NCBI GenBank assembly: GCA_947629945.1
Contig: CANRFR010000001.1
Span: forward strand, 1 to 64,000
Direction of reading: 5' to 3'
Source: an uncultured Clostridia bacterium
GTDB taxonomy: Bacteria; Bacillota; Clostridia; Oscillospirales; Ruminococcaceae
DNA: 64,000 nucleotides
Position 1 is the first letter of the stretch; every line of letters begins with the position of its first letter. A model generated the notes under the pieces. It was not told the origin of the DNA and did no database searches. It worked only from the letters and a program-made list of their open reading frames with translations. This document shows, piece by piece, positions 22,970-37,894 of the stretch. Both the position numbers and the translations under genes were made by a program.

Positions 22970-24199
22970 TTATTTTCGTATTCTTCTTGCTTCGCAGTAA
23001 AACCGTTTGTCGTGCGCGTGACCCATTGAGAATGTCTTTCTCGGCAGCGCACCGTCCTTTATTACAGTGGGGAACAGTTCCTCTTTTTGCATACTCGGCA
23101 GCAGAAATCCTATGGTATTCGGCTGCTTGCAGAGCGACCGCACCACGTCCTCGCCGTGAATATAGTCGATATTACCGCCGTTCTTCTTTAAGTACTCGTC
23201 AAGGAATGTCTGAAGCGAACCTACCGTGAGATTTGAAGTCGGCTTTGTTATACTGAATTTGCGTTCCTCGCCGTCGATTATCGCGGTAAATTTTTGCGCA
23301 CCATCATCGGAAAGTCCCAAAGCGCCTGTCATTTCGCTTAGGAGTTTTTTCGTATCAATATCCGTAACCACGCGGTGGATAGCTTCAAACTCAAGAGCGG
23401 GGGAGTGCAGATTTACTATCTCGACAAGCGCGTAACGCGCAAGCTCCGTGTCGGGAGAGCCGTCGCGTTTTTTCTGCTCGTAGCACTCTTTAGCCGTGGC
23501 AAGCGAGTGATTTCCGTCGCCCATGGCGAACAGCAGAACGTCTCCGATGTCGTCCGTGTTTTTTTCCGCGAGCCTGTCCAGAGCGTTAAGAACTCTTTCA
23601 GCGGCTTCTCCGTTCACCAAAGCTCCCGAAAGGTGCCCGCCGTTCTGCATAAGCTCGAAATCGTAGAGCGCCCGCAAGTCCTTATCGAGAAGCGGCTCTA
23701 TAACGGTGTTTTCGGGGTCGTCAATAAGTATCATTATGTGCGGAAGCTCCAAAGGCGCGTTCATACGTATCTTAACGCGCGGCGGTATCCGAGAAGCTAC
23801 GGTAGCTTCTGTCGCGCGGACTTGAGACCGGCTGTCTTTGTTGTAGTCGTACATTTCCAAATCAATAGCGCCCACCAAGCCCGCTCTAAGTCTGCCGTCC
23901 GCCTGAACGCGCTTTGTTAAAATAAAACAGTCCTTGTACTCGTCAAACAAGCCGCTGTTCAGATATTCGCTCATAGCGGCGTTTATTTTCTCGATACGTT
24001 TTTCGCAGTCGGGCTGTTCAAGGTATATTTCGGGCAGAATGAGCCGCAAGGTTGACGGCGCGTTTCCAACCGTATCGTAAACGGCTTTCCAGTATTCCGG
24101 TTCGCCCGTGTACTGGTCGCACGCGACCACCGCCCATTTCTCCATTCCGGTTTCATCAAGCTTAGGCAGAAGTATATCGGTTTTTACGAATGCGTTCAT
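22970..24199 (-). CDS. DUF1015-family protein
   Basis: VACDQYTGEPEYW; RATEATVASRIPPR; FAMGDGNHSLATAK. Confidence 0.88.
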   Translation of the reverse strand: MNAFVKTDILLPKLDETGMEKWAVVACDQYTGEPEYWKAVYDTVGNAPSTLRLILPEIYLEQPDCEKRIEKINAAMSEYLNSGLFDEYKDCFILTKRVQADGRLRAGLVGAIDLEMYDYNKDSRSQVRATEATVASRIPPRVKIRMNAPLELPHIMILIDDPENTVIEPLLDKDLRALYDFELMQNGGHLSGALVNGEAAERVLNALDRLAEKNTDDIGDVLLFAMGDGNHSLATAKECYEQKKRDGSPDTELARYALVEIVNLHSPALEFEAIHRVVTDIDTKKLLSEMTGALGLSDDGAQKFTAIIDGEERKFSITKPTSNLTVGSLQTFLDEYLKKNGGNIDYIHGEDVVRSLCKQPNTIGFLLPSMQKEELFPTVIKDGALPRKTFSMGHAHDKRFYCEARRIRK

Positions 24200-24211: not shown

Positions 24212-26347
24212 TTAGTTCTTTATAATTCCGACCGCCTTGTAGCGTTTAAGCGGATATTCCCGCACGGGAACTCCTTTTTCGAGAGCAAGCTCCACAAGGT
24301 GCGAGGTCAAGGGGTCGTTCATCGAGCGCAGTAAGACGATTTCGGGCGCTCGGCGCAATAACACGCGCGTAGCTTCGCCTATGCTCGGTTTAACAAGATT
24401 GAGGTCGATCACGCCGAATTCTTCGGCAATTTGGCGCGTTTCCTCCAGTCCCTCTCCGTGCGGCTGTAAACATTCGCTCGGGGAATACGGCGGCAGAGAT
24501 ATCAATTCGCGCTCTATCGCGTTGATGAAATCGTAAGTTCTGTCCGTTTCGCGGAATTTATCGAAATAAAACGCGCCGTGAAAGTCTCCGGGGAATATCA
24601 GGTCATTTCGAAGTACCGTCCGCGAAAACAGTCCCGAAGCAACGCTGTTAAGGCAGGAGCAGGGAATGAACACGTCCTCGCGGGTGCCGCAGATATCGCA
24701 AACACCCGCCGGGTCGGCGAGAACCGCTGGTCGGCAGTCTATCTCGGGATAATCGGATAACGCTTCGGCAAGCTGCCGAGTTATCGCGCCTTTGCCCGTC
24801 CAGCCGTCCACGAACTGTATGCATTTTGCCGAGTGACGGGCGAGAATGTATTCAAGCGCCGCCTTGTCGATGCCGCGACCTCGGATAATGGAAATTGAGT
24901 AGTGGGCGGAATGAATTCCGTGTGCCAATTCCAGATAGCGCTTTATCAGCACGCCTATCGGAGTGCCCGCGCGAGCCAGCGACACGATAACAACGTTTTC
25001 TCCTTTGGCGCGCAGCATTTGCTCGGATATCGACCGCACCGCCAAAGCCGTCTGCCGCCCCCAAGTTTTGAGTCCTTGTTCGTAAAGCTTTATATACTCC
25101 GCGCTCGGCTCATATTCCTCGGGGAGCAGTTCGCAGTAGTGAACGCCTCGGTGCAGCTTTTCTTGACGTTCCTCGGCGTTCATCGGGGAAATTTTCCCCG
25201 TAACGTCCTTTAACAGTAGTCGGCAGTCGTTCGATTTCAGAGAAGTACGCATAGACTTGCCGCGCCAGCGAACAACAACGATACGAGAGCCGCCGCAGGC
25301 TCCGCAGGTGAGATTTAAGGCTGTCTCGTCGATATTCTCCGCGTCCGTCATTACTATTGTAACGCCGCTCGTCACTTTGTTGTATAGATAAACCGTTCGT
25401 GAGCCGTCGTACAGACTTGGCAAAACCGCTCGGTTCTTTATCGGGTAGCCCTCCGTCAAATTCGGCAGAACGGGGCTTCTGGTCACTCCGTGGACAAACG
25501 TCTTATACCCTTTATCCGCAAGCATTTTTCCAAGAATAAGCGGCGGCAGACATAGTTCTTCGGTGCCGATAAGCTCCACGGTCTCAGTATTGCGGAGAAC
25601 GTCGGATAGGCGCTCCGAAATATCGCCGCAAAGCCGTTCACATTCCTCGAAATATTTCGCGCAGCCGACTCCCAAACGAATGTCGTACAGCGCGTTAAGG
25701 CTGATATCAAGGTCGGGAACTTTTGAGAGCGGCGGCTCGTTTTCGCCGAATTTCTCGGGAAAATCGGCGGCGGTAATACTGTCGTATAAGAATTTCGCGT
25801 GAACGTCAACGCTTATCTCCGCGAGATTATCAACGCTTTCTCGGGTCGCCGCGAACGCGTGCGCGGAGATAGCCGCGGAGGTTTTTGTCTGAAGCAGCTT
25901 TGCCAGCGCCTTTACAGTGTTCCCCGTAGTAAATTCATCGTCTATTATAAATATATGTGCAAATTCGGATAAGTCAACGTCCGCGCGGCAGCAAAGTTTG
26001 TGAGTGGGCGCGTGACTGTGCGTTTCCTCAAACGAAACGCTTTCGCACCAATCGGGCAGCTCTTCGCGCGTGGTGCTTATCAAAAAGCAGCGCTCTCCAA
26101 GAGCTTTCGCAGCAAGCGCTCCGATACCCACTGCAGTTTCCGCGAAAACTATCGTAAGACATTTTCCTTCGGTGCAAATCCGCTTCATTTCTTCGCCCAT
26201 TTCGGCGCAGTGTAAAGCGGTTTCGCGCGGGTCGGAGGGGTAGTGCTTCGATTGGAATTTGTTGACTATCAAAAAGTCGCGGCGCGGGTTGTTTTCGCGT
26301 TTGGCGATACCGAATTTATCGGGTATCGTTGTAAGATCGTTAGACAT
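24212..26347 (-). CDS. Fused PRTase_2-TRSP-PRTase_1 (StiP)-PELOTA_1-like protein (tellurite/stress-associated family)
   Basis: PRPP-loop-like IIDDEFTTGNT; second PRTase-like VSLARAGTPIGVLIKR...DGWTGKGAI; C-terminal VKPSIGEATRVLLRR...HLVELALEKGVPVREYPLKRYKAVGIIK. Confidence 0.75.
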   Translation of the reverse strand: MSNDLTTIPDKFGIAKRENNPRRDFLIVNKFQSKHYPSDPRETALHCAEMGEEMKRICTEGKCLTIVFAETAVGIGALAAKALGERCFLISTTREELPDWCESVSFEETHSHAPTHKLCCRADVDLSEFAHIFIIDDEFTTGNTVKALAKLLQTKTSAAISAHAFAATRESVDNLAEISVDVHAKFLYDSITAADFPEKFGENEPPLSKVPDLDISLNALYDIRLGVGCAKYFEECERLCGDISERLSDVLRNTETVELIGTEELCLPPLILGKMLADKGYKTFVHGVTRSPVLPNLTEGYPIKNRAVLPSLYDGSRTVYLYNKVTSGVTIVMTDAENIDETALNLTCGACGGSRIVVVRWRGKSMRTSLKSNDCRLLLKDVTGKISPMNAEERQEKLHRGVHYCELLPEEYEPSAEYIKLYEQGLKTWGRQTALAVRSISEQMLRAKGENVVIVSLARAGTPIGVLIKRYLELAHGIHSAHYSISIIRGRGIDKAALEYILARHSAKCIQFVDGWTGKGAITRQLAEALSDYPEIDCRPAVLADPAGVCDICGTREDVFIPCSCLNSVASGLFSRTVLRNDLIFPGDFHGAFYFDKFRETDRTYDFINAIERELISLPPYSPSECLQPHGEGLEETRQIAEEFGVIDLNLVKPSIGEATRVLLRRAPEIVLLRSMNDPLTSHLVELALEKGVPVREYPLKRYKAVGIIKN

Positions 26348-26379: not shown

Positions 26380-27084
26380 TTATGTGCGGCGTTCGTTATT
26401 CAACAGCTTTACAGAGCCGTTCAATATCATTCTTAAATAGTCCTCGGGCGAACGTATCGGCTCGGGTGTAAGAACGCCGCCGCCCGCTATTTCCCCAACG
26501 CTGTGGACGTCCGAGCCGCCGGTCTGCGGCAGTCCGTATGATTCGGCGTAAGCCCGGGCGCGGTCGTTCCAAACCGCAGAGCCGCCGAACAACGGCTTGG
26601 AGTTCCGCAGATTGACGGCTTCTACCGCGTCGACGTGGTGGGGATAGAGACTGATGTGCGGAATGTAGTCCGCTTCGCGAAACGGATGTGCCTGAACAAT
26701 GAATCCCCCCGTTTTGCGAACCTCGTCAAAAAGCTCTGTCTCGCGGGCGTTCATCAAAAGATACTCGTTGTCTTTCAGCCATTGCTTATCCTTGTTGTAT
26801 ATAAGGAGGTCCGCGCCGTTTATCGTCCATTCAACCCCGAAGAAAACGGCAAGTCCTATCTTCGCGCCCTCTTCACGAGCGTTTTCGTAGCCCTTGCAAT
26901 AAAGGTCAATGCGCTGTTCCCACGGCAGGTCTTGGGGCACGGTGGTGCTGGAGTTGAAGAAGTGGTCGGTGACGAATATCCCGTCGTAGCCGCGCTCCTT
27001 GTGCGCCCGAGCCATTTCCGCGCCCGTGGAGGAAGCGCACGCGCTGCTCTCCGAGGTATGCAGATGTGTTTCGTATTTATACAA
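26380..27084 (-). CDS. PHP-domain metal-dependent phosphoesterase
   Basis: MYKYETHLHTSESSACA...GYDGIFVTDHF; VQAHPFREA; TGGSDVHSVGEI. Confidence 0.9.
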   Translation of the reverse strand: MYKYETHLHTSESSACASSTGAEMARAHKERGYDGIFVTDHFFNSSTTVPQDLPWEQRIDLYCKGYENAREEGAKIGLAVFFGVEWTINGADLLIYNKDKQWLKDNEYLLMNARETELFDEVRKTGGFIVQAHPFREADYIPHISLYPHHVDAVEAVNLRNSKPLFGGSAVWNDRARAYAESYGLPQTGGSDVHSVGEIAGGGVLTPEPIRSPEDYLRMILNGSVKLLNNERRT

Positions 27085-35916: not shown

Positions 35917-37170
35917 ATGAGTGAAGTGAGAGACGAAACTTTGTGGGAAAGCGGCGAACGCAAGATTGAGTGGGTAAAGCGCAATATGCCGCTGCTTAAC
36001 GGTATTGAGAAAGAGTTCGCGGCGGAAAAGCCGTTCGCGGGAAAGAAAGTCGCGCTTTCGGTGCATTTGGAGGCTAAGACCGCGTATCTGTGCAAGGTGC
36101 TTGCGGCGGGCGGCGCAGAAATGTTCGTAACTGGCTCGAATCCTCTTTCCACACAGGACGACGTGGCGGCGGCGCTGGCTCACGACGGACTTAACGTGTT
36201 CGCGTGGCACGGCGCTACGGACGAGGAGTATCACGCGCACATCGCGAAAGTTATCGAGGCGGCGCCGAACATCATCATAGACGACGGCGGAGATTTGGTG
36301 AACCTGATACACAACGAGCGTCCCGACCTTATCACGAACGTGCTCGGCGGCTGCGAGGAAACTACGACGGGTATAATAAGACTGCTTGCGATGGACAAGG
36401 CAAAGGCGCTGAAGTTCCCGATGGTGCTCGTGAACGACGCGGATTGCAAGCACCTGTTTGACAACCGTTACGGTACGGGTCAGTCCGTTTGGGACGGCAT
36501 CAACCGCACGACTAACCTTATCGTAGCGGGCAAACAGGTGGTAGTCGCGGGCTACGGCTGGTGCGGAAAGGGCGTGGCTATGCGCGCTAAAGGCTTGGGC
36601 GCGGAGGTCGTCGTTACGGAGATAGATCCTATTAAGGCTATGGAAGCGGTAATGGACGGCTTCAAGGTAATGCCTATGCGTGAAGCGGCTAAAATCGGCG
36701 ACTTTTTTGTGACCGTTACGGGCTGCGCGGACGTTATCGGCGAGGAAGCTTTCAACAATATGAAAGACGGCGCTATATGCTGCAACGCGGGACATTTCGA
36801 CGTTGAGGTCAATATGGCGAAGCTCCGTGAGATCGCCGTTGACAGCTATCAGGCGCGCAATAACATTATGGGATACAAGCTGAAAAACGGCAATACGATA
36901 TTTGTCATTGCCGAGGGCAGACTTGTAAACCTTGCGGCGGGCGACGGTCACCCGGCGGAAATTATGGATATGTCTTTTGCAATTCAGGCGCTCTCCGCCG
37001 AGTATATCGCGAAGAACGCGGACAAGCTCAAGGCTCGTGAGCAAATGACGGTAAACGTACCCAAGGAAATAGACAGAAAAGTTGCCGAGCGCAAACTTGC
37101 CGCGTGGGGCTTTGAGATAGACAAGCTTACTCCCGAACAGGAGAAATATCTTGGAAGCTGGGAAGTTTGA
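35917..37170 (+). CDS. ahcY: Adenosylhomocysteinase
   Basis: SVHLEAKTAYLCKVL; GCEETTTG; NDADCKHLFDNRYGTGQSVWDGI; VAGYGWCGKGVAMRAKGLGA. Confidence 0.95.
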   Translation: MSEVRDETLWESGERKIEWVKRNMPLLNGIEKEFAAEKPFAGKKVALSVHLEAKTAYLCKVLAAGGAEMFVTGSNPLSTQDDVAAALAHDGLNVFAWHGATDEEYHAHIAKVIEAAPNIIIDDGGDLVNLIHNERPDLITNVLGGCEETTTGIIRLLAMDKAKALKFPMVLVNDADCKHLFDNRYGTGQSVWDGINRTTNLIVAGKQVVVAGYGWCGKGVAMRAKGLGAEVVVTEIDPIKAMEAVMDGFKVMPMREAAKIGDFFVTVTGCADVIGEEAFNNMKDGAICCNAGHFDVEVNMAKLREIAVDSYQARNNIMGYKLKNGNTIFVIAEGRLVNLAAGDGHPAEIMDMSFAIQALSAEYIAKNADKLKAREQMTVNVPKEIDRKVAERKLAAWGFEIDKLTPEQEKYLGSWEV

Positions 37171-37894
37171 CGCGCTTTTTTCCGATATCGACGGAACGCT
37201 GATATTCTCCGCGAAACGTTGCCGCGAGGGCGATACGGTTATCGAATACAAGAACGGCGAGCCTATCTCCTGCATAACGGAAGTTCAAGCGGAGTTGTTT
37301 TCAAAGCTTCAAAACGTCATTCCGGTGACTACAAGAAGTATCGAGCAATATAAGCGCATTGAATTCGCGAAGTTCGGCTTTAGGCCGCGGTACGCGCTGT
37401 GCGATAACGGCGGCACGCTTCTTGTGAACGGCGAACCGGACAAGACATGGTCGGAGTGGTCGGCGGGTATATATGATGAGTGTGCGGATGAACTGAGGCG
37501 GTTTAAAGAGCTGCTTGAACGGGATAAGCGCCGCAGTTTTGAGATACGTTTAGTGGACGGGCTGTTTCTGTTTACAAAAAGCTCCGCGCCCGACGAAACG
37601 CTGAAAGCGCTCGGATGCGGCGGGTTGTGCGAGAGTTTTTCAACGGGAGAAAAAGTGTACGTCGTGCCTAAAGCGCTTAATAAAGGTTCGGCAATGCGTA
37701 AGCTGGCAAGACGATTGAATGTTTCGGATTACGCGGCGGCGGGCGATTCGCTTATGGATCTGTCAATGCTGAACGCGGCGGATACGGCGGTCTTTCCGAG
37801 CGATCTCGATGGCTCGGTAACTGCTCAAAGCAAGTTTATGTTCGGTCGTGAGCGGTTTCCGGAGCGTTTGACGCAATGGGCGGCGAAAGCATAA
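37151..37894 (+). CDS. HAD-superfamily hydrolase (Cof-like)
   Basis: ALFSDIDGTLIFSAKR; ALCDNGGTLLVNG; AAGDSLMDLSMLNAAD; TTG start overlapping ahcY. Confidence 0.88.
   Translation: MEAGKFDALFSDIDGTLIFSAKRCREGDTVIEYKNGEPISCITEVQAELFSKLQNVIPVTTRSIEQYKRIEFAKFGFRPRYALCDNGGTLLVNGEPDKTWSEWSAGIYDECADELRRFKELLERDKRRSFEIRLVDGLFLFTKSSAPDETLKALGCGGLCESFSTGEKVYVVPKALNKGSAMRKLARRLNVSDYAAAGDSLMDLSMLNAADTAVFPSDLDGSVTAQSKFMFGRERFPERLTQWAAKA

Follow-up and report, generated by a model that had tools for sequence, protein, structure and literature searches.

The window, meaning the whole stretch of 64,000 nucleotides that was analyzed (contig CANRFR010000001.1 of assembly GCA_947629945.1, from an uncultured Clostridia bacterium), carries a minus-strand row of genes for NAD synthase, a 226-aa protein, polA, a PHP-family phosphoesterase, a fused phosphoribosyltransferase-type (PRTase) protein and DUF1015, followed by three small genes; the members of this row lie 9-42 nt apart or overlap slightly. 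The neighbours agree with an earlier sequence-only reading, which placed the fusion between DUF1015 and PHP in a row with polA. The same reading listed TerD, TelA and ATP-grasp as absent from the window, and a search of the window matched neither TerD, TelA or a ter ATP-grasp nor YceG or the C-C lyase; the reading's list of window genes missed a ter-type HAD phosphatase. The features are as follows.

22970..24199, minus strand: DUF1015 gene, downstream of the fusion; a neighbour, not a consistent partner
24212..26347, minus strand: fused PRTase_2-TRSP-StiP-PELOTA_1 protein, 711 aa, ATG start
24215..24451, minus strand: PELOTA_1 domain, aa 633-711 (Pfam E 3e-27), L7Ae/L30e-like fold
24515..25243, minus strand: StiP domain, aa 369-611 (Pfam E 4e-89)
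24788..24808, minus strand: second PRPP-loop-like motif DGWTGKG in the StiP half, aa 514-520 (from the alignment)
25250..25252, minus strand: junction Met366, the apparent former StiP start codon (from comparison with unfused homologues)
25358..25642, minus strand: TRSP domain, aa 236-330 (Pfam E 3e-13), TRSP motif intact
25874..26314, minus strand: PRTase_2 domain, aa 12-158 (Pfam E 6e-34)
25916..25948, minus strand: PRPP loop IIDDEFTTGNT in the first half, aa 134-144 (from the homologue alignment)
26380..27084, minus strand: PHP-family phosphoesterase gene (PHP/PHP_C), upstream of the fusion; a neighbour, not a consistent partner
35917..37170, plus strand: S-adenosylhomocysteine hydrolase (SAHH) gene, directly upstream of HAD; a positional association only
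37151..37894, plus strand: ter-type HAD phosphatase gene, the only copy in the genome; its TTG start overlaps the SAHH gene end

As had been proposed from the sequence, PRTase_2, TRSP, StiP and PELOTA_1 were found in one 711-aa polypeptide; all four matches exceeded the curated Pfam cut-offs, and chance is excluded by E-values down to 4e-89. The proteins merged were two rather than four, since PRTase_2-TRSP and StiP-PELOTA_1 are already single proteins elsewhere. Homologue alignments, made separately for these two parts, showed that both PRPP-loop motifs picked out earlier are conserved, with D137, E138, T141 and T144 of the first loop invariant across 20-22 homologues and the D, G, W, G, K and G of the DGWTGKG motif invariant in the StiP alignment. 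These are components of the ter biosynthetic module predicted by Anantharaman, Iyer and Aravind in 2012, which according to the papers citing it comprises PRTase_2-TRSP, StiP-PELOTA_1, C-C_Bond_Lyase, ATPgrasp_Ter and HAD (cited in PMC7824862 and PMC5571608); the PRTases and HAD were predicted to make a nucleoside or nucleotide derivative, and TerB/TerD might sense the product (PMC7824862, PMC5512222). For the first component both domains, the PRPP loop and the TRSP motif were present, and for the second both domains and the conserved motifs. The window resembles the predicted module in the usual two-gene order of the four domains and in HAD type, but differs in that the two proteins are fused, the lyase and ter ATP-grasp were not found and the genes are ter-unlinked.

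The structure model of residues 1-365 (pLDDT 91.5) matched adenine PRTases (Foldseek E ~1e-6, TM 0.72-0.76 by target length), and in this model the first half is APRT-like, with the Type I PRTase fold and the PRPP loop. With respect to residues 366-711 (pLDDT 89.3), no fold match reached E 0.001; a match to PyrR (E ~4e-3, TM ~0.5) would make the StiP domain weakly PRTase-like (PyrR-type), and L7Ae/L30e-type proteins were also matched across ~90 residues. A sequence search against the PDB gave only weak matches, mostly to BRCA1, which were dismissed as chance at E 0.02 and worse. If StiP were the cysteine protease of its database name, the fusion would couple a protease to a PRTase. We find this scarcely credible: the Pfam name alone supports it, but the label is unsupported by the sequences because an alignment of 30 StiP sequences has no invariant Cys, C565 (the best-conserved column with a window Cys) being I or L in 5 of the 30, and the 50 fold matches listed for the model included no protease. 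At the end of the protein, a C-terminal Cys was found in 25 of 30 PELOTA_1 ends; at this position, residue 706, five members of the fused clade described below have V or A instead.

Most relatives encode PRTase_2-TRSP and StiP-PELOTA_1 in two neighbouring genes, and in several unfused pairs these lie in different frames with a 13-16 nt overlap. At the window junction the TRSP half ends ...VVRWR and is followed by a 3-residue linker, GKS, and then MRTSL; several unfused PRTase_2-TRSP homologues have similar ends (...EWR or ...KWR), the unfused StiP of locus L034 begins MRTSY, and Met366 is retained in all four close species. By this comparison the two parts meet with hardly a seam, and residue 366 is what was once the start Met of StiP. 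Internal re-initiation at Met366 was rejected, as a Shine-Dalgarno sequence before it was neither clear nor conserved. We infer that two overlapping genes were brought into one reading frame in a single ancestor of a small clade of Oscillospiraceae, either after these genes had left the ter locus or at the same time.

Any match to the fusion components was found in 11/295 genomes of the order sample, 13/391 of the class sample and 36/398 of the family sample, counts which are not independent because the samples overlap. One-frame fusions were seen in the window's own genome (G000) and in G895, G985, G1019, G849, G397 and G607, as well as in three further MAG records at 68-75% identity. Trees of both halves united the window, L025-L027, G895 and G985 in a fused clade of six species of uncultured, gut-type Clostridia (support 100/99 for PRT-TRSP and 100/98 for StiP-PELOTA), in all of which the fusion reading frame is open; the closest four share 61-67% identity in the PRT half and 76-84% in the StiP half, with motifs intact. 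The unfused set of G279 (L031) was sister to this clade, with support of 97/94 in the PRT-TRSP tree but only 86/84 in the StiP-PELOTA tree. This set is likewise ter-unlinked and lyase-less, and consists of PRTase_2-TRSP, StiP-PELOTA and HAD only, but its genes are separate, with a 13 nt overlap, and its HAD is adjacent.

Other fusions fell elsewhere in the trees. The G607 fusion was placed far outside the window's clade. G1019 and the unfused G403 formed a pair for either half (100/98 and 100/99), and G849/G397 adjoined this pair for the PRT half (93/90) but not for StiP. From these positions the fusion would have arisen at least three and probably four times, unless G403 re-split; besides the window's fusion there appear to be at least two separate ones and probably a third, some within complete ter loci. 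The fusions of G849/G397 (L172, L173), G1019 (L171) and G607 (L096) share with the window's the domain order and the single frame, but differ in their separate origins and in having lyase and HAD nearby in all, with ATP-grasp nearby in G849/G397/G1019 and TerD nearby in G849/G397 and G607. Because the same two enzymes have been fused repeatedly, PRTase_2-TRSP and StiP-PELOTA_1 would be expected to work together.

No fusion was found among the best 15 of 2567 plasmid records with a match; plasmid ter loci, for example that of Lactococcus pFI430 (NC_025249.1), carry homologous PRTase and StiP genes, but unjoined and as part of a full ter locus. Nor was a fusion found in the one record of the phage collection whose reading frames were examined. 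A match labelled 'Bacteriophage sp.' (MT836648.1, L139; label unverified) was rejected as a phage fusion; its ter locus, which includes YceG, TelA and TerD, is unfused, and the record resembles a clostridial chromosome.

It had been suggested that DUF1015 and PHP are partner enzymes of the fusion, and one explanation of the locus is that they replaced the lost enzymes to form an operon pathway with it. Both are spaced tightly from the fusion (12-32 nt), and the fusion has DUF1015 after it in all four close species and PHP before it in three of them. However, the fusion of G895 lies between an aldose epimerase and TrkH and that of G985 between a GGDEF gene and HAD, with DUF1015 and PHP absent nearby in both, so that the polA-PHP-DUF1015 setting is a feature of the closest four species, one of which (L027) has no adjoining PHP. 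DUF1015 is moreover common in genomes without the fusion, being found in 71/120 family genomes, mostly without it. The partnership was therefore not borne out, and we regard such an operon pathway as very improbable; judged by these neighbourhoods, the presence of DUF1015 and PHP beside the fusion is a position effect.

The HAD phosphatase is, on the same kind of comparison, a better-supported partner than DUF1015/PHP. The window HAD matches HADs located after StiP in ter loci, and lies inside the window but not adjacent to the fusion, ~11 kb away on the opposite strand. One ter-type HAD gene was found in each of four fusion genomes (the G778 match was in pieces on one contig), and in G985 HAD is directly downstream of the fusion, 5 nt from its stop. 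In the HAD tree the window, G777, G779 and G985 sequences grouped with those of congeneric unfused species (98/97), and the fused-clade HADs were thus not shown as a clade of their own. The placing of HAD after SAHH with a 20-nt overlap (35917-37894, plus strand) is kept in G777 and G779.

Genome-wide results for TerD, lyase and ATP-grasp cover four fusion genomes (G000, G777, G778 and G779), and absences are those of draft genomes and MAGs, the window's own being 97.75% complete in 206 contigs. TerD was present in three copies in each of the four. On another contig of G000 the genes for vWA, PP2C, kinase, CaATPase and two TerD proteins were found, the last 726 bases of this contig encoding the start of YceG (91% identity to G777), and in G777, G778 and G779 the vWA-PP2C-kinase-CaATPase-TerD row continues through YceG to TelA. 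With this TerD/YceG row on another contig, the window's genome has a ter locus unlinked to the fusion: ter genes are present, but no TerD, TelA or YceG is linked to the fusion, and no fused-clade member has ter genes near it. On G000 contig 57 (L004, 12120-13496), a 458-aa protein ends in a TerD domain and gave no Pfam match over its N-terminal part; it is conserved in fused genomes.

C-C_Bond_Lyase (PF15617) was absent from the four fusion genomes searched but present in 8/9 comparison genomes, the exception being G279. ATPgrasp_Ter (PF15632) was not found in G000, and G777, G778 and G779 gave only weak matches of carbamoyl-phosphate-synthase type (E ~1e-9 to 1e-7); a strong match was obtained only in G247, G249 and G124. 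The weak matches elsewhere lay mostly in long frames of ~1,060-1,110 aa and are read as carbamoyl-phosphate synthase, as this frame length would predict. As 6/9 comparison genomes also have no strong match, the ter ATP-grasp would seem optional in the module. The sequence-only reading had described a reduced, ter-independent pathway; 'reduced' stands, with lyase and ter ATP-grasp not found, while 'ter-independent' does not, given three TerD copies per genome and an unlinked locus. It had also named as counter-evidence a full ter locus in another part of the genome encoding the missing enzymes: a ter locus exists, but the enzymes were not found.

We favor, with rather better than even confidence, the explanation that the PRTases of the ter module have been fused, are ter-unlinked, and work with HAD toward a nucleoside-like compound for ter proteins. 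The fusion would join two phosphoribosyltransferase-type enzymes of the module (PRTase_2-TRSP and StiP-PELOTA_1), whose PRTase domains may have a substrate in common, worked on within a pseudo-heterodimer or passed from one to the other; HAD would remove phosphate from the product, and the resulting compound may act through TerD/YceG/TelA encoded elsewhere. The ter-unlinked module thus reads best as two PRTases and HAD, which probably provide ter proteins encoded elsewhere with a nucleoside-like metabolite, a functional link suggested by co-occurrence.

It is unlikely that the fusion is instead a purine/adenine salvage enzyme unconnected with ter, with HAD beside SAHH as a nucleotidase. The APRT-like fold of the first half, the HAD-SAHH tandem in three genomes and the lack of ter genes near any fused-clade fusion are in keeping with salvage, but TRSP, StiP and PELOTA motifs are retained, TerD occurs in 4/4 fusion-bearing genomes tested, and the gene is too sparse in the family for a housekeeping gene. 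Less probable still is a decaying relic that lost two enzymes and works no longer; the missing lyase and ATP-grasp would fit, as would the replacement of the C-terminal Cys that is usual elsewhere, but the open frames in six species, and the identities and intact motifs of the closest four, argue against decay.

Within the favored reading of a fused, ter-unlinked module, the loss of lyase and ATP-grasp in the fused clade suggests that the two PRTases and HAD form the core of the ter module. A stronger form, which we put forward only tentatively and hold well short of even, is that the fused double PRTase and HAD make up a minimal but complete synthase whose product, a nucleoside-like signal, acts in trans on ter proteins, with lyase and ATP-grasp merely decorating it. 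The product of the module is a long-standing question, and the slimmed pathway offers a small system for its identification, with two soluble proteins, one of them bifunctional, that is easier to test in the laboratory.

In two further species of the window's genus (L030 and L174; G249 and G944), unfused PRTase and StiP genes were found together with HAD and a ter ATP-grasp. The PRTase and StiP of these species come from a different lineage, although the HADs lie close to that of the window, a pattern suggesting that the PRTase genes were replaced within the genus.
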